A stretch of 52,013 nucleotides of DNA from Candidatus Rokuibacteriota bacterium (lineage in GTDB: Bacteria; Methylomirabilota; Methylomirabilia; Rokubacteriales; CSP1-6): NCBI GenBank assembly GCA_003220315.1, contig QHSA01000157.1, positions 1 to 52,013 of the forward strand. The letters run 5' to 3'. The translations under genes and the position numbers were made by a program. How positions within the stretch are numbered: position 1 is the first letter of the stretch; every line of letters begins with the position of its first letter. Of this stretch, positions 10,029 to 16,775 are shown piece after piece. The notes beneath the pieces were generated by a model. The model saw only the letters and a list, made by a program, of their open reading frames with translations, searched no databases and had not been told where the DNA came from.

Positions 10029-11543
10029 CTAGGCCGAGCGCTTGGCGATGAAGCCGTGCGCGTGATTGTCGCGTAGCTCGTCGAGCTTACCGGCGATGCG
10101 GTACTCCTCCTTGATCTGGGCGTACTTGTCCAGGGGCAGCCGCGGATACTCGGCTCTCAAGTTGAGGTTGTAGAGCCGAGCCGAGTTCAGGCCGAAGATC
10201 TGGCTCTTCACACCGCCCGTCGCAGGACCAAGCGGGGCGAACTTGTGCTTCTTCTGCATGTCCTCGGGGATTTCGAGCCGGCGCAGCGCTTCGATCTGCC
10301 ACTGCGGCGACCCGTACAGCACCGAGTCGGTGCCCCACACGACGTGATCGACGCCCATGCCCTTGATCCAGGTGCCCAGGAGAGCCGCCGCGAAGCGCGG
10401 GTTGGCTGTGCACGAGTTGGCGAAGCTCGTCCCCATCTCCGCATAGACGTTCGTGACACCGTGCTCGGCCGGGATGCGGGCGAGGTCGCTCGCCCATTTG
10501 ATCTCGCCGGTCTGATCGAACTCGGCGAGGGCCCGGTCGGGCAGCTCCTGGAAGGCGCGCAGGCCGCCGTGGTAAATGACGAAGTTCAACTGCGGCCAGT
10601 CCTTGGCGGCCTTGGCAATGTCCCAGGGCGTGTTGTACTGCCACACGCCCGCCCAGCTCTGCTCGTAGTCGACCGGCATCAGCCCCTTGTGGATACACAG
10701 GGTCTTGATGCCCACCTTGACGGCCTTCTCGTAGAACGGGTACACGAGCTTCTGGTCGTCGAGCCGCCAGGGGTACTTGGTCTTTGCCGACAGCGGGTCA
10801 CCGATCGTGTAGAGCTTCCAGCTGTCGGGATTCAGCTTGTCGATGGCGAGGTCGACCCCGTCCATCCAGCCTGGCTGCCCCGGAGTGATGACGGCATGGC
10901 CCAGCATCCGCCGGGTGCCACCCCCCACCCGGTTGACCATGTCCACCGCCTCGCGGATCTGCGTATTGGGGAGGAACTCCCACGACCTGTCGTCGAAGGG
11001 CGCGCCGCTCAGAAGCGCCACTGAGGTGTCACTGTTGAGGAAGATCTGCCGCACGTAGTTCTCGAACTTGTAGTAGTAGAGATCCGTCTGCTCCGCCTTG
11101 GTGAGCGTGGGGTTCCAGTGCTGGGAGGCGAAGGCGGCGAGTCCCAGAATGCCCGGTTGCGAGTATTTGTCGTGGACGAAGTGCGTCTGGACGTCGAAGA
11201 TGAACTGCCCCTTCATGGCGTCGGCGCGGTCGGCGGCGCGGGCAGGATCGGCGGCCTCAGCCTCCGAGACGTCGAACAGGTCGCCGAACACCTGGTTCAT
11301 CGCCAGGAAGGCCGCGGCCATGCCGCAGCTCGTGCGAAGAAACCGGCGCCGATCCAAACCCTGCCTGGCGCCGTGTCGGTCCGCCAACTCCTTGATGCGC
11401 GCTTCGACTTGCTTCTGCTGCGCGGTTTGCGGCAGCGGGTTGAACTCTCCGTTCGAGACGATCTGGGTCGGAACAGGCGACGGAAACGCGTGTTCCGCTG
11501 GCTCGACTTCAGCGAGCTCACGTTCGCTCAGAAAAATGCCCAT
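10029..11543 (-). CDS. Tat-exported amidohydrolase-2 family metallohydrolase
   Basis: 504 aa from the ATG at 11543 with an AAGGAG ribosome site. A twin-arginine motif (DRRRFLRTSC, 64-73) and a hydrophobic stretch (GMAAAFLAM) lie about 60 residues into the protein, so the Tat signal has an unusually long N region. The barrel begins at FIFDVQTHFVHD (the His-containing first metal strand), continues with NFVIYHGGL and reaches the late WGTDSVLYG Asp element, the amidohydrolase-2 pattern. Such enzymes are hydrolases or decarboxylases of cyclic and aromatic substrates. It is preceded on the same strand by the cyclase-family gene. Confidence 0.85.
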   Translation of the reverse strand: MGIFLSERELAEVEPAEHAFPSPVPTQIVSNGEFNPLPQTAQQKQVEARIKELADRHGARQGLDRRRFLRTSCGMAAAFLAMNQVFGDLFDVSEAEAADPARAADRADAMKGQFIFDVQTHFVHDKYSQPGILGLAAFASQHWNPTLTKAEQTDLYYYKFENYVRQIFLNSDTSVALLSGAPFDDRSWEFLPNTQIREAVDMVNRVGGGTRRMLGHAVITPGQPGWMDGVDLAIDKLNPDSWKLYTIGDPLSAKTKYPWRLDDQKLVYPFYEKAVKVGIKTLCIHKGLMPVDYEQSWAGVWQYNTPWDIAKAAKDWPQLNFVIYHGGLRAFQELPDRALAEFDQTGEIKWASDLARIPAEHGVTNVYAEMGTSFANSCTANPRFAAALLGTWIKGMGVDHVVWGTDSVLYGSPQWQIEALRRLEIPEDMQKKHKFAPLGPATGGVKSQIFGLNSARLYNLNLRAEYPRLPLDKYAQIKEEYRIAGKLDELRDNHAHGFIAKRSA

Positions 11544-11681
11544 GCGTGTCTCCTTGCGTGGCCCCTCGGGGCGCGTACCGTGAAGCGAACTCACCGGTCT
11601 CTCAGGAGTGCCGTCGTCTCGGGTCTCCCCTCCCTTCTGGGCCGCGCCGCTCAGACACGGATCCGTCCGCGGCCCGCACCG

Positions 11682-12854: not shown

Positions 12855-13940
12855 CTAGTTGGCGTCGCTCCGCTGGACGGATTCGAGGAACGTCTTGATC
12901 TTCCAGATCGTGTCCTCATCCAGCGCCGGGCCCCACGGCGGCATGCCCTTGGTGGGCCGACCCTGGGTGACGGTGATGTAAAACACCTGGTCCTCGTGCG
13001 CGCCGTAGCGGGTGCTGAGCCGCCGGAGGTCGGTGCGCGGCTCCGGATTCGCCGCGTTCGGCGAATGGCAGTGCGAGCAGTGCGTGTTGAAGAGCGTCCG
13101 CCCCGCCGCCACCGCCGAGGCGTCGCCCCTAAACGGGTTGCGCTTGCCGGCAGGTGCGAGATCGACCGGCGCGTCGAGTGGGAAGTGATACTTGGCAGCC
13201 AGCTGAGGGATGGCGGGCTCCAGCTCGGCCAGAACGCGATCCAGGTGGTCGCGCAGGGATCGATCGGCCGCTCTCACCCCGATGGCCGCACGCCACCGCA
13301 GATTGAGCCCGGTCACCGAGGTGATCCGGAACTTTCCGAGGAGGCCGCGGCGCGCGGCTCGGTACCCCGCGTCGGGGCCCCACAGGAATGCGGCGTCGAT
13401 CTGCCGCTCGGCGAGCGCGTCGAGTGCCGCCTCGGTCGATCTGAACGTCGTGAGCCGGACGCGGTCACGGACCGACAGGAGCGTCTGAGGCGTGGACGCG
13501 AAGAGAACGCCGACCGACATCCCGTCGAGATCGTCGAGGCTGCGAAGGATGAACGTCGGCGGCGCGACGACCGCATAGCCGACTTCGAGGAAGGGACGGG
13601 TGAGGGCGATGGTCGCCCCCGGGCCCCGGTCGGTCGCGTGGGGGAGCCCGATGAACATGTCGCAGCGGCCGGCCACGAGGGTGGGCCGCAGGGCGCGCCG
13701 GCCGACGTCCGTCCGGAAGAAGAAGGGCTCGACCCGCGTCCCCATCCGATCGGCGATGAGCTCGGCCAGCTCGAGGTACATCCCCTGCTCGCGGGAGTCT
13801 GCGCTGGTGAAGGGAGCGTTGTCGGGATCGGCGCACACGCGCAGGGGCGCGGCCTCCCCGTCGCCCGCGACGAGGCCGATGATGGCGAAGCCGAGCGCGG
13901 CGGAGACGAGCCGCAGGGCTCGTCTCCGCCGCCGGGTCAC
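12855..13940 (-). CDS. XoxJ-like periplasmic binding protein fused to a cytochrome c (XoxJ-XoxG fusion)
   Basis: 361 aa from a GTG at 13940. An N-terminal arginine-rich signal/membrane segment precedes a type-3 solute-binding domain (about 33-255; LRVCADPDNAPFT, GMYLELAELIADRMG), the MxaJ/XoxJ type. A C-terminal class I cytochrome c (about 265-361) follows, with heme site Cys288-SHC-His292 and the distal Met in GMPPWG. In methanol dehydrogenase systems XoxJ helps mature the dehydrogenase and XoxG accepts its electrons; here one polypeptide would do both. It starts 2 bp after the stop of the PQQ dehydrogenase gene, so they are cotranscribed. Fused XoxGJ proteins are known in NC10 bacteria. Confidence 0.83.
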   Translation of the reverse strand: MTRRRRRALRLVSAALGFAIIGLVAGDGEAAPLRVCADPDNAPFTSADSREQGMYLELAELIADRMGTRVEPFFFRTDVGRRALRPTLVAGRCDMFIGLPHATDRGPGATIALTRPFLEVGYAVVAPPTFILRSLDDLDGMSVGVLFASTPQTLLSVRDRVRLTTFRSTEAALDALAERQIDAAFLWGPDAGYRAARRGLLGKFRITSVTGLNLRWRAAIGVRAADRSLRDHLDRVLAELEPAIPQLAAKYHFPLDAPVDLAPAGKRNPFRGDASAVAAGRTLFNTHCSHCHSPNAANPEPRTDLRRLSTRYGAHEDQVFYITVTQGRPTKGMPPWGPALDEDTIWKIKTFLESVQRSDAN

Positions 13941-13942
13941 CG

Positions 13943-15637
13943 TTAGTCTGACAGCGAGAACACGAACAGCGCACCGCCTTCCGCGCTTGCCTCGATCATC
14001 TTGCGGCCGGTCTCACCGAAGAACGGCGGGATGGAGTGGGTCCGCCCGGAGACCACCGCGATGTACTGCTTGCCGTCGATCGTGTAGGTCATCGGACCGG
14101 CGTGGATGCCGGACCCCGTGTAGAACTTCCACAGAAGGCGGCCCGTCTTCTGGTCGAGCGCCTTGAACCAGCCCTCCGTGTTGCCGTGGAACACGAGCCC
14201 ACCGTCGGTCGCCAGCATCCCACCGACGTAGGGGAGCGCCTCCTTGTTGCGCCAGAGCGCCTGCTGCTTGACGGGGTCCCAGGCGATCGCCTCGCCCATG
14301 AACCCGCCCGGCCCGGGCTTGCCGATCTCGAAATCGGCGCCGAGGTAGAACGCGCCGCGCTTGTACTCCTGGGCGACGAACTCCATGTCCATGCAGAGGT
14401 TGAAGGTCGGCAGAAAGACGATGCCCGTCTTCGGATTGAGGGCCATCGGCATCCAGTTCTTCGCGCCGATCGCCGCGGGGCAGACCCCCTTCGCGCGGTA
14501 GCCCTGCCGGGGTCGCATCGACTCGTTCTCGATCGGGCGCCCCGTGGTCATGTCGACCCCGCTGGCCCAGGTGATGTACTGGAACGCCTTCGCCGAGATG
14601 AGCTTGCCGGTCTGCCGGTTGATGACGTAGAAGAAGCCGTTCCGATCGCCCTTGAGGACGACGGGAGTCTTCTGGCCTTGGAGCGTCAGGTCGGCGACGA
14701 GGAGCTCGTTGACCCCGTCGTAGTCCCACGCATCGTGCGGCGTCGACTGGTAGTGCCACACGATCTTGCCCGTGTCGGCGTCGAGGGCGACGGACGACGA
14801 CGTGTACAGGTTCGTGAAGTCCCCGTAGTCGCTCTTGTCGGGCCCGCGCACGGCGGCATTCCAGGGGCCCGGATTGCTCGTGCCGTAAAAGACGAGGTTC
14901 TGCTGCGGATCGTACGATCCAAGCGCCCAGGCGGCCCCGCCGCCCGTCTTCCACGAGTCACCCTTCCAGGTGTCGTTGCCGGGCTCCCCGGGTCCCGGGA
15001 CGAGGTAGGTCCGCCATACCAGCGCCCCGCTGTCCGCGTCATACGCCTGCAGGGCGCCGCGAACCCCGTACTCGCCCCCGCCGAAGCCGATGATGACGTT
15101 CTTCTTCGCGACCACGGGGGGCGACGTGATGACCGCGCCTTCCTTGTAGTCCACGACCGTCGTGGTCCACAGCTCCTTGCCGGTCCTCGCGTCGAGCGCC
15201 GTCAGGCGGCCGTCGAGCAGGCCGACGAACAGCTTGCCGTTCGCGTACGCGGCGCCGCGGTTGTTGACGTCGCAGCAGCCGTAGGGATCCACGTCGGCCG
15301 CGATCTCGCGGTCGTGCCGCCAGCGCAGCTCCCCCGTCCGCGCGTCGACCGCGAAGACGTGCTTGGGGCCGAACGACGAGGTGACATACAGAGTGTCCCC
15401 CACCACGAGCGGCGTCGATTCTTGGGACCTGAGTGTGCCGAGCTGGAGCACCCAGGCGGCCTTGAGCTTGTGGACATTCGAGGTGCTGATCTGACTGAGC
15501 GCGCTCCAGTGCGTGTTGCCCGGGTCACCTCCGTAGAACGGCCAGCCCGTGTTCTGGGCGCTGGTGGCCGGAGGAACGAGCAGCGCGCCAGCCAGCGCCG
15601 CCGTCAGGACGAGGACCGCGAGGTACGACTTTCTCAT
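13943..15637 (-). CDS. PQQ-dependent alcohol dehydrogenase, lanthanide type
   Basis: 564 aa from the ATG at 15637 (GGAGG upstream), starting a Sec signal peptide ending in ATSAQ. It is an eight-bladed quinoprotein of the methanol/ethanol family. The vicinal Cys121-Cys122 pair is present (YGCCDVNNRG). The catalytic Asp305 and the second Asp307 in WDYDG form the D-x-D signature of lanthanide-dependent XoxF/PedH enzymes; calcium MxaF has Ala at that place. The N terminus resembles PedH/ExaA-type alcohol dehydrogenases more than canonical XoxF5, so the natural substrate may be a longer alcohol. Electrons would pass to the fused cytochrome encoded directly downstream. Acts in the periplasm. Confidence 0.88.
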   Translation of the reverse strand: MRKSYLAVLVLTAALAGALLVPPATSAQNTGWPFYGGDPGNTHWSALSQISTSNVHKLKAAWVLQLGTLRSQESTPLVVGDTLYVTSSFGPKHVFAVDARTGELRWRHDREIAADVDPYGCCDVNNRGAAYANGKLFVGLLDGRLTALDARTGKELWTTTVVDYKEGAVITSPPVVAKKNVIIGFGGGEYGVRGALQAYDADSGALVWRTYLVPGPGEPGNDTWKGDSWKTGGGAAWALGSYDPQQNLVFYGTSNPGPWNAAVRGPDKSDYGDFTNLYTSSSVALDADTGKIVWHYQSTPHDAWDYDGVNELLVADLTLQGQKTPVVLKGDRNGFFYVINRQTGKLISAKAFQYITWASGVDMTTGRPIENESMRPRQGYRAKGVCPAAIGAKNWMPMALNPKTGIVFLPTFNLCMDMEFVAQEYKRGAFYLGADFEIGKPGPGGFMGEAIAWDPVKQQALWRNKEALPYVGGMLATDGGLVFHGNTEGWFKALDQKTGRLLWKFYTGSGIHAGPMTYTIDGKQYIAVVSGRTHSIPPFFGETGRKMIEASAEGGALFVFSLSD

Positions 15638-15748
15638 GTGCGCCTCCATCTCGATGCGGAACGGGTTTCGGGGCGCGACGCAAATCGGTGTCCCACCTCC
15701 CCCCAAAAGTTCGGCGCGAATCTTATGCCCCCCGACAGAGGGGCGCAA

Positions 15749-15764
15749 GCCGCGGCTTCGCGGC
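15749..15764. repeat. Small hairpin in the divergent promoter region
   Basis: GCCGCG-GCTT-CGCGGC, a perfect 6-bp stem, lies in the 200-bp spacer between the PQQ dehydrogenase (minus) and the cyclodeaminase-like gene (plus). It could be an operator or transcript structure. Confidence 0.3.
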
Positions 15765-15840
15765 GCCTAACCTAGCACGTCGCCCCGGAGAGCGCGACAC
15801 CTTGCAGACACGCGTGACCGCCGACTATGATGCCGGCATC

Positions 15841-16737
15841 GTGGGCCTCTTGATCCTCTCCGAGGAGGCCGTCCGTGGCCTGCTGCGTATGGAAGATCTC
15901 ATCCCGGCGATGGAAGGTGCGCTGGCCGCTCTGTCGCGCGGACACGTGGTGCAGCCGGTTCGCGTGATGCTGCCGGTCGCGGAGCACGGGGGCTTCTTCG
16001 GCCTCATGCCGGCCTACGCCGGGGCGCTCGGCGCGAAGCTCGTGACGCTCTACCCGAACAACCAGGGCGTCCCCACCCACCACGCCATGATCCTGCTCTT
16101 CAAGCCCGAGACCGGCGAGCCGCTCGTCATCATGGATGGCCGATTGATCACCGAGATGCGGACCGGCGCCGTGTCGGCCGTCGCGACGCGGCTCCTCGCC
16201 CGCCCGGACGCGTCGGTGCTGGCGATCCTCGGCGCCGGAGTCCAGGCCCGAAGCCACCTGGAAGCGCTGCGACACGTCCGCCCGTTCCGCGAGGTCAGGG
16301 TCTGGAGCCCGCGAAACGCCAAGACGTTCGCGGAGCGCTTCGGTCTCACGGCCGCACCATCCGCCGAGCAGGCGGTGCGCGGGGCGGACGTCGTCGTGGT
16401 CGCGACGACCTCCGAGACTCCCGTCTTGCTCGGCGAGTGGCTGGAGCCGGGGACCCACGTCAACGCGGTCGGCGCGCCGCGGCCGACGTGGCGCGAGCTG
16501 GACGACGAGACGCTTCGCCGGGCGCGGATCTACGTCGAGTCGAGGGAGGCGGCGATGCGCGAGTCGGGGGATATCATCGCGGCGGGCCGAGCGCCGCTCG
16601 AGATCGGTGAGGTGGTGGCCGGCACCGCGCCCGGTCGGCAGTCCCCGGACGAGGTCACGCTCTTCAAGTCGGTCGGTGTCGCGGTGGAAGACGTCGTCAC
16701 CGCCGACCTCGTGTACCGCAAGGCGGCCCGACGCTGA
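15841..16737 (+). CDS. Ornithine cyclodeaminase/mu-crystallin family protein
   Basis: 298 aa from a GTG at 15841 (GLLILSEEAV follows, the usual family start); a GTG at 15814 is an alternative, and neither has a clear ribosome site. Family marks are AKLVTLYPNN, the GRLITEMRTGAVSAVAT substrate-side helix and the Rossmann motif LGAGVQARSHL followed by VWSPR. Members include ornithine cyclodeaminase, alanine dehydrogenase and ketimine reductase, and the exact reaction cannot be assigned. It reads toward the ABC transporter operon but is separated from it by a sigma-70 promoter. Confidence 0.85.
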   Translation: MGLLILSEEAVRGLLRMEDLIPAMEGALAALSRGHVVQPVRVMLPVAEHGGFFGLMPAYAGALGAKLVTLYPNNQGVPTHHAMILLFKPETGEPLVIMDGRLITEMRTGAVSAVATRLLARPDASVLAILGAGVQARSHLEALRHVRPFREVRVWSPRNAKTFAERFGLTAAPSAEQAVRGADVVVVATTSETPVLLGEWLEPGTHVNAVGAPRPTWRELDDETLRRARIYVESREAAMRESGDIIAAGRAPLEIGEVVAGTAPGRQSPDEVTLFKSVGVAVEDVVTADLVYRKAARR

Positions 16738-16775
16738 CGCGGACGGCGCCCCGGCGCCAGGCTCGCGTCCGACGT

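Follow-up and report, generated by a model that had tools for sequence, protein, structure and literature searches.

The DNA analysed here, a stretch of 52,013 bases referred to below as the window, is contig C287 of the 4.26 Mb genome (G000) of a soil Rokubacterium. It contains two adjacent genes that encode a PQQ-dependent alcohol dehydrogenase (P0001) and a protein in which a XoxJ-like domain is joined to a cytochrome c (P0002); their features are collected in Table 1. The dehydrogenase stop codon and the GTG start of P0002 are separated by 2 bp, both reading frames are intact, and each protein begins with a signal-peptide-like segment. The earlier note had described the neighbour of the dehydrogenase as merging an XoxJ-type domain with a cytochrome c, and the coordinates, together with the matches to TIGR03871 and to cytochrome c models, bear this out.

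Table 1. Features of the dehydrogenase-fusion locus, in window positions.
Feature	Position	Strand	Evidence
PQQ-dependent alcohol dehydrogenase P0001, lanthanide-type active site, 564 aa, signal peptide	13943..15637	-	TIGR03075 633 bits; best PDB match XoxF 4mae 446 bits; own tree clade
D305-Y306-D307 codons, D-x-D lanthanide motif (XoxF2 D299, Y300, D301)	14717..14725	-	alignment to 4mae
C121-C122 codons, vicinal cysteines (XoxF2 C104-C105)	15272..15277	-	alignment; invariant in 8 orthologues
GGAGG, likely ribosome-binding site of dehydrogenase	15643..15647	-	sequence, 5 bases before ATG
XoxJ-like domain fused to cytochrome c, P0002, 361 aa, signal peptide	12855..13940	-	2 bp after dehydrogenase; profile matches, AlphaFold2 model
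XoxJ/MxaJ-like periplasmic binding domain, residues 33-255	13176..13844	-	TIGR03871 112 bits; XoxJ 6onp E 5e-16; Foldseek TM 0.78 to 6onp
Class I cytochrome c domain, residues 266-357	12870..13145	-	PF13442, PF00034; PedF model 46 bits
CSHCH haem-binding motif, residues 288-292	13065..13079	-	sequence; C288, H290, C291, H292 invariant in 27 fusions

Neighbouring genes in the window encode a cyclase, an amidohydrolase, an ornithine cyclodeaminase, an isochorismatase, a periplasmic binding protein with a transporter, and a LigB-like protein. They are not conserved with the pair outside close relatives and appear to be a poor guide to its substrate. The loci of the congeneric genomes G001 and G002 lack the ornithine cyclodeaminase-like gene (15730-16772) but are collinear in other respects, and the amidohydrolase gene (10029-11594) has no counterpart in the collinear G002 locus. 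The gene neighbourhood kept beyond close relatives consists of the dehydrogenase and fusion genes only. No conserved third gene was found near the pair: most neighbour clusters were antisense frames or confined to a genus, and Pfam gave no match for nine of ten cluster representatives.

P0001 scores above the 480-bit cut-off of TIGR03075, a curated model for PQQ-dependent dehydrogenases of the methanol/ethanol family, and its nearest solved relative is a lanthanide XoxF. Alignment with 4mae pairs P0001 residues C121, C122, E189, N255, D305, Y306, D307, and R332 with the identical residues C104, C105, E172, N256, D299, Y300, D301, and R326, in agreement with the Asp-Tyr-Asp lanthanide signature and vicinal cysteines claimed in the earlier note. 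The residues by which XoxF/MxaF enzymes are tested for lanthanide use (E172, N256, D299, D301, and the vicinal cysteines) are present in P0001, and the Asp that it keeps at 4mae position 301 is Ala in MxaF and Ser in ExaA. P0001 lacks the ∼20-residue insert that follows the W-R-x-Y strand in the methanol dehydrogenases (MDHs) XoxF and MxaF. At the site of XoxF KDQQPA it shares KNWMPM with PedH. Cys386 and Cys415 align with cysteines of XoxF and MxaF that are absent from PedH and ExaA. This mosaic probably explains why the N-terminus was initially thought to be PedH/ExaA-like, a claim that did not hold: the N-terminal region is 36–43% identical to PedH/ExaA and 39–43% identical to XoxF, and a grouping of P0001 with PedH/ExaA is rejected (see below).

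The dehydrogenase phylogeny was inferred with IQ-TREE from 77 rows and 506 columns. Solved structures supplied some of the reference rows (XoxF2, XoxF5 twice, MxaF twice, PedH, ExaA, and a quinohaemoprotein; aligned parts only), and annotated plasmid loci and public genome loci supplied the others; among the plasmid loci are XoxF3-like ones located beside cox genes (L168, with Trp at 300, and L176). P0001 lies within a clade of 29 rows (support 100/99) that is sister, with support of 100/98, to a 26-row XoxF+MxaF group (100/100) that does not include XoxF1 or XoxF4, and a larger quick tree recovers the same P0001 clade. PedH and ExaA form a separate clade (100/100), and the PedF-linked homologue from an M. 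extorquens plasmid (L172) groups with PedH. When the P0001 clade is constrained to join PedH/ExaA, the likelihood falls by 46.6 log units (AU p = 0.0005), and membership in the PedH/ExaF enzymes (PQQ-ADH type 2b) was rejected on this basis, in a tree without ExaF of AM1. Membership in the XoxF/MxaF methanol dehydrogenases was likewise rejected from the position of P0001 outside the XoxF+MxaF clade and from the absence of the MDH insert and KDQQPA. P0001 is neither a canonical XoxF nor a member of PedH/ExaA. The suggestion that the fusion is partnered by a quinoprotein of a clade other than canonical XoxF is thereby upheld, and placement inside canonical XoxF, which the earlier note named as a refuting outcome, was not found with the XoxF types sampled here.

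Keltjens et al. in 2014 reportedly divided the PQQ-ADHs into types 1–9, a broad scheme that should hold the P0001 clade somewhere. The non-MDH paralogues L200 and L204 of M. aquaticum pMaq22A_1p fall in another clade, and an assignment of P0001 to type 6a was not supported; L200 and L204 are probably Adh4 and Adh6 of M. aquaticum and of type 6a, judging from PMC7356819. P0001 groups neither with these two proteins nor with ExaA/PedH, in a comparison made without the other types, type 5 among them.

Residues 33–255 of P0002 constitute an SBP_bac_3/MoxJ-type sequence. The TIGR03871 (XoxJ/MoxJ) match spans positions 2–231 of 232 at a score below the 212-bit cut-off of the model, and the N-terminal half of the AlphaFold2 model of P0002 (mean pLDDT 89, pTM 0.76, confident outside the signal peptide) superimposes on XoxJ 6onp. 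The J domain and 6onp have in common a C-x-DP motif, a second Cys, and a WGP-x-AG motif; C36, C93, the WGP-x-AG stretch, and CxxCH are conserved across the fusions, and the first three of these have counterparts in 6onp. The J domain is thus a relative of the XoxJ/MoxJ family and not a curated member of it. The cytochrome c domain has a single CSHCH motif and a putative Met ligand, and it scores 46 bits against the PedF profile versus 20 bits against cytochrome cL/MoxG. Each of the 27 aligned clade fusions matches TIGR03871 and cytochrome c models, as P0002 does; every fusion in the clade contains one CxxCH, with C288, H290, C291, H292, and M333 invariant. Orthologues at 83, 82, and 63% identity are present in three congeneric genomes. 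These orthologues, the recurrence described next, and the confident AlphaFold2 model show that the fusion is the product of neither chance nor a frameshift.

Recurrence of the pair was evaluated over 52 distinct clade loci chosen by dehydrogenase sequence only, with the neighbour ignored; many are from Bradyrhizobium, and the counts do not represent independent events. A fusion gene is located directly downstream of the dehydrogenase at 42 of the 52 loci (41 detected by script plus L075, which was missed by the script's overlap limit and was added to the count). The remainder comprise seven loci with a cytochrome alone, two with neither domain next door, and one with a broken fusion. The J-cytochrome fusion is the usual partner of the P0001 clade, which is represented in Rokubacteria, Bradyrhizobium, Acetobacteraceae, Comamonadaceae, and Oxalobacteraceae. 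No recognisable fusion was present at the XoxF, MxaF, PedH, or ExaA loci of the set. The distribution of the pair is patchy. Fusions are rare in Burkholderiales, where 300 genomes gave four matches (two already known and one covering the cytochrome part only), and no plasmid match exceeded 60% identity, leaving plasmid carriage unsupported. Frameshift-like splits of the dehydrogenase (L124 and L131) or of the fusion (L132) occur in other Rokubacterial assemblies and reflect assembly error or decay. The dehydrogenase on a 3.8 kb contig labelled Acidobacteria (L088) matches that of the Rokubacterial genome G020 exactly, probably through a binning error.

The fused J domain is not strictly needed at every locus, because the neighbour of seven clade members is a J-less cytochrome and two members lack both domains next door. 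Genomes with a J-less clade member usually encode a fused paralogue as well (G000, the genome analysed here, G002, G003, G046, G049, G050, and B. tropiciagri); the genomes G047 and G048, with a cytochrome only, have no fused paralogue, and each encodes another J-like protein. J-less dehydrogenases beside fused paralogues are consistent with a J domain that acts in trans, and do not demonstrate it. Bradyrhizobium tropiciagri SZCCT0338 combines cytochrome-only and fused clade members (L122 and L138), as do the Rokubacterial genomes G000, G002, and G003.

A second J-cytochrome fusion is encoded in the same genome (G000:C190:4363-6944, L070) and is 32% identical to P0002. It follows a D-x-D quinoprotein that lacks the vicinal cysteines and has Lys at the R326 position, and similar pairs occur in G013, G018, G019, G020, and G023. 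A J-domain tree separates the fusions of the P0001 clade (one group, support 100) from the group of stand-alone XoxJ (99) and from that of this second Rokubacterial set (95), whose partner D-x-D quinoproteins, the one on C190 of G000 among them, lack the vicinal cysteines. The J-then-cytochrome order is thus found in two separate lineages. The fusion may have originated twice or split once at an early stage, and neither history is proven. In the cytochrome-domain tree, which has 87 columns, is weak at depth, and was not used alone for any conclusion, PedH-type cytochromes fall into a group of their own (99).

The genome of origin encodes eight PQQ dehydrogenase paralogues (on C287, C261, C174, C190 twice, C14, C275, and C117), all eight with Asp aligned at both D-x-D positions, and PqqE and PqqC were detected above cut-off on one contig as evidence of PQQ biosynthesis. 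The paralogue on C174 is a canonical XoxF (758 bits against XoxF 6oc5) with a stand-alone xoxJ adjacent.

P0001 might instead be a divergent XoxF methanol dehydrogenase whose partner is a Methylacidiphilum-type XoxGJ fusion. Its catalytic residues are those of XoxF, its clade is sister to XoxF+MxaF, it keeps C386 and C415, which align with MDH cysteines, and an XoxG:J fusion is present in Methylacidiphilum. The XoxF + XoxJ + XoxG system also resembles the pair, with a PQQ enzyme whose residues at the cofactor and metal are identical and, at the same locus, genes for a J-family binding protein and a cytochrome c. It differs in that P0001 belongs to a separate clade outside the fully supported XoxF+MxaF group, with no MDH insert and KNWMPM instead of KDQQPA, in that J and cytochrome here are one protein, and in that this cytochrome is nearer to PedF than to cytochrome cL by profile score. 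The genome, moreover, already encodes canonical XoxF alongside a stand-alone xoxJ. Cytochrome cGJ of Methylacidiphilum fumariolicum SolV resembles P0002 in that an XoxJ-type domain is attached to a cytochrome serving a lanthanide dehydrogenase as electron acceptor, a role that P0002 would share; these fusions were compared by description only. In the published fusion the J part is truncated; that protein is accompanied by a separate full xoxJ (PMC8498564, PMC6688271) and serves XoxF2, whereas the J domain of P0002 is full length and N-terminal and has no xoxJ beside it. The earlier note also held that XoxGJ fusions accompany XoxF in NC10 bacteria, and this was not borne out by seven genomes of the same class, probably Methylomirabilis (f5 g25), that keep xoxJ-like and cytochrome genes separate beside xoxF. 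On balance, we consider assignment to a divergent XoxF unlikely.

Another alternative is that P0001 is a calcium enzyme, or promiscuous for metal, despite its D-x-D motif. The motif predicts lanthanide use by P0001 and is no proof of it; the assignment is motif-based, and a D-x-D quinoprotein characterised as Ca-dependent was predicted to be perhaps facultative in its metal (PMC11996626). The Asp pair is, on the other side, conserved across all clade members inspected at the active site, and we judge calcium dependence or promiscuity to be rather improbable. That P0001 is a PedH/ExaF-type lanthanide ethanol dehydrogenase with fused PedF and PedG partners seems very improbable. In its favour, the PedH/ExaF + PedG + PedF system likewise combines a D-x-D quinoprotein bearing KNWMPM with a J-like protein and a c550 cytochrome, there encoded by three separate genes; pedF and pedG occur as separate genes at pedH and exaF loci (including L172 and L173), and the cytochrome domain of P0002 matches PedF. 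Against it, PedH-type cytochromes group apart, and union of P0001 with the PedH/ExaA clade is rejected by the AU test.

We think it likely that the two genes form a self-contained periplasmic alcohol-oxidation module, belonging to a clade sister to all MDHs for which a fused J-cytochrome protein is the usual partner. Dehydrogenase and fusion would both be exported to the periplasm by their signals, and the dehydrogenase would oxidize a small alcohol or aldehyde at an active site containing PQQ and, most likely, a light lanthanide. Electrons would then pass one at a time from the dehydrogenase to the haem of the fused cytochrome and on to the respiratory chain, a transfer that we assume from the adjacency of the genes and for a cytochrome whose PedF match outscores that to cytochrome cL/MoxG. 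A proposed role for XoxJ/MxaJ proteins is to bind MDH apo-enzyme and assist in the insertion of PQQ and metal (PMC12997753), and in SolV the electron acceptor of XoxF is a comparable fusion, cytochrome cGJ (PMC6688271, PMC7082304). Because of these two precedents, we read P0002 as assembly domain and acceptor on one chain, in which the J domain would most likely aid the apo-enzyme in taking up PQQ and metal, keep the cytochrome docked at the dehydrogenase, or do both.

Lanthanide enzymes proven so far are XoxF-type MDHs and PedH/ExaF (PMC11996626). A bolder reading, which we advance only tentatively, is that the P0001 clade might be a third lineage of lanthanide alcohol dehydrogenases, biochemically undescribed and sister to all MDHs, in which assembly factor and acceptor are permanently one protein, loading and discharge are physically coupled, and fusion occurred independently in a second quinoprotein lineage of the genome. 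No published description of the clade, its fusion, or the biochemistry of any member was found in a search that stopped short of Huang 2019 and of the full Keltjens scheme. XoxF from Rokubacteria is already on record, as a distinct branch in one study (PMC5103831), and the clade bears on which Rokubacterial 'XoxF' appeared in soil proteomes (PMC5103831). It may also account for one Bradyrhizobium PQQ dehydrogenase of unknown function (PMC12628762). More generally, a sister clade of the MDHs with a near-constant one-protein partner is available in the culturable genera Bradyrhizobium, Comamonas, Rhodopila, Polaromonas, and Ramlibacter, and such a partner offers a tractable route to XoxJ function, in which holoenzyme and electron flow would be compared with the J half kept or deleted.
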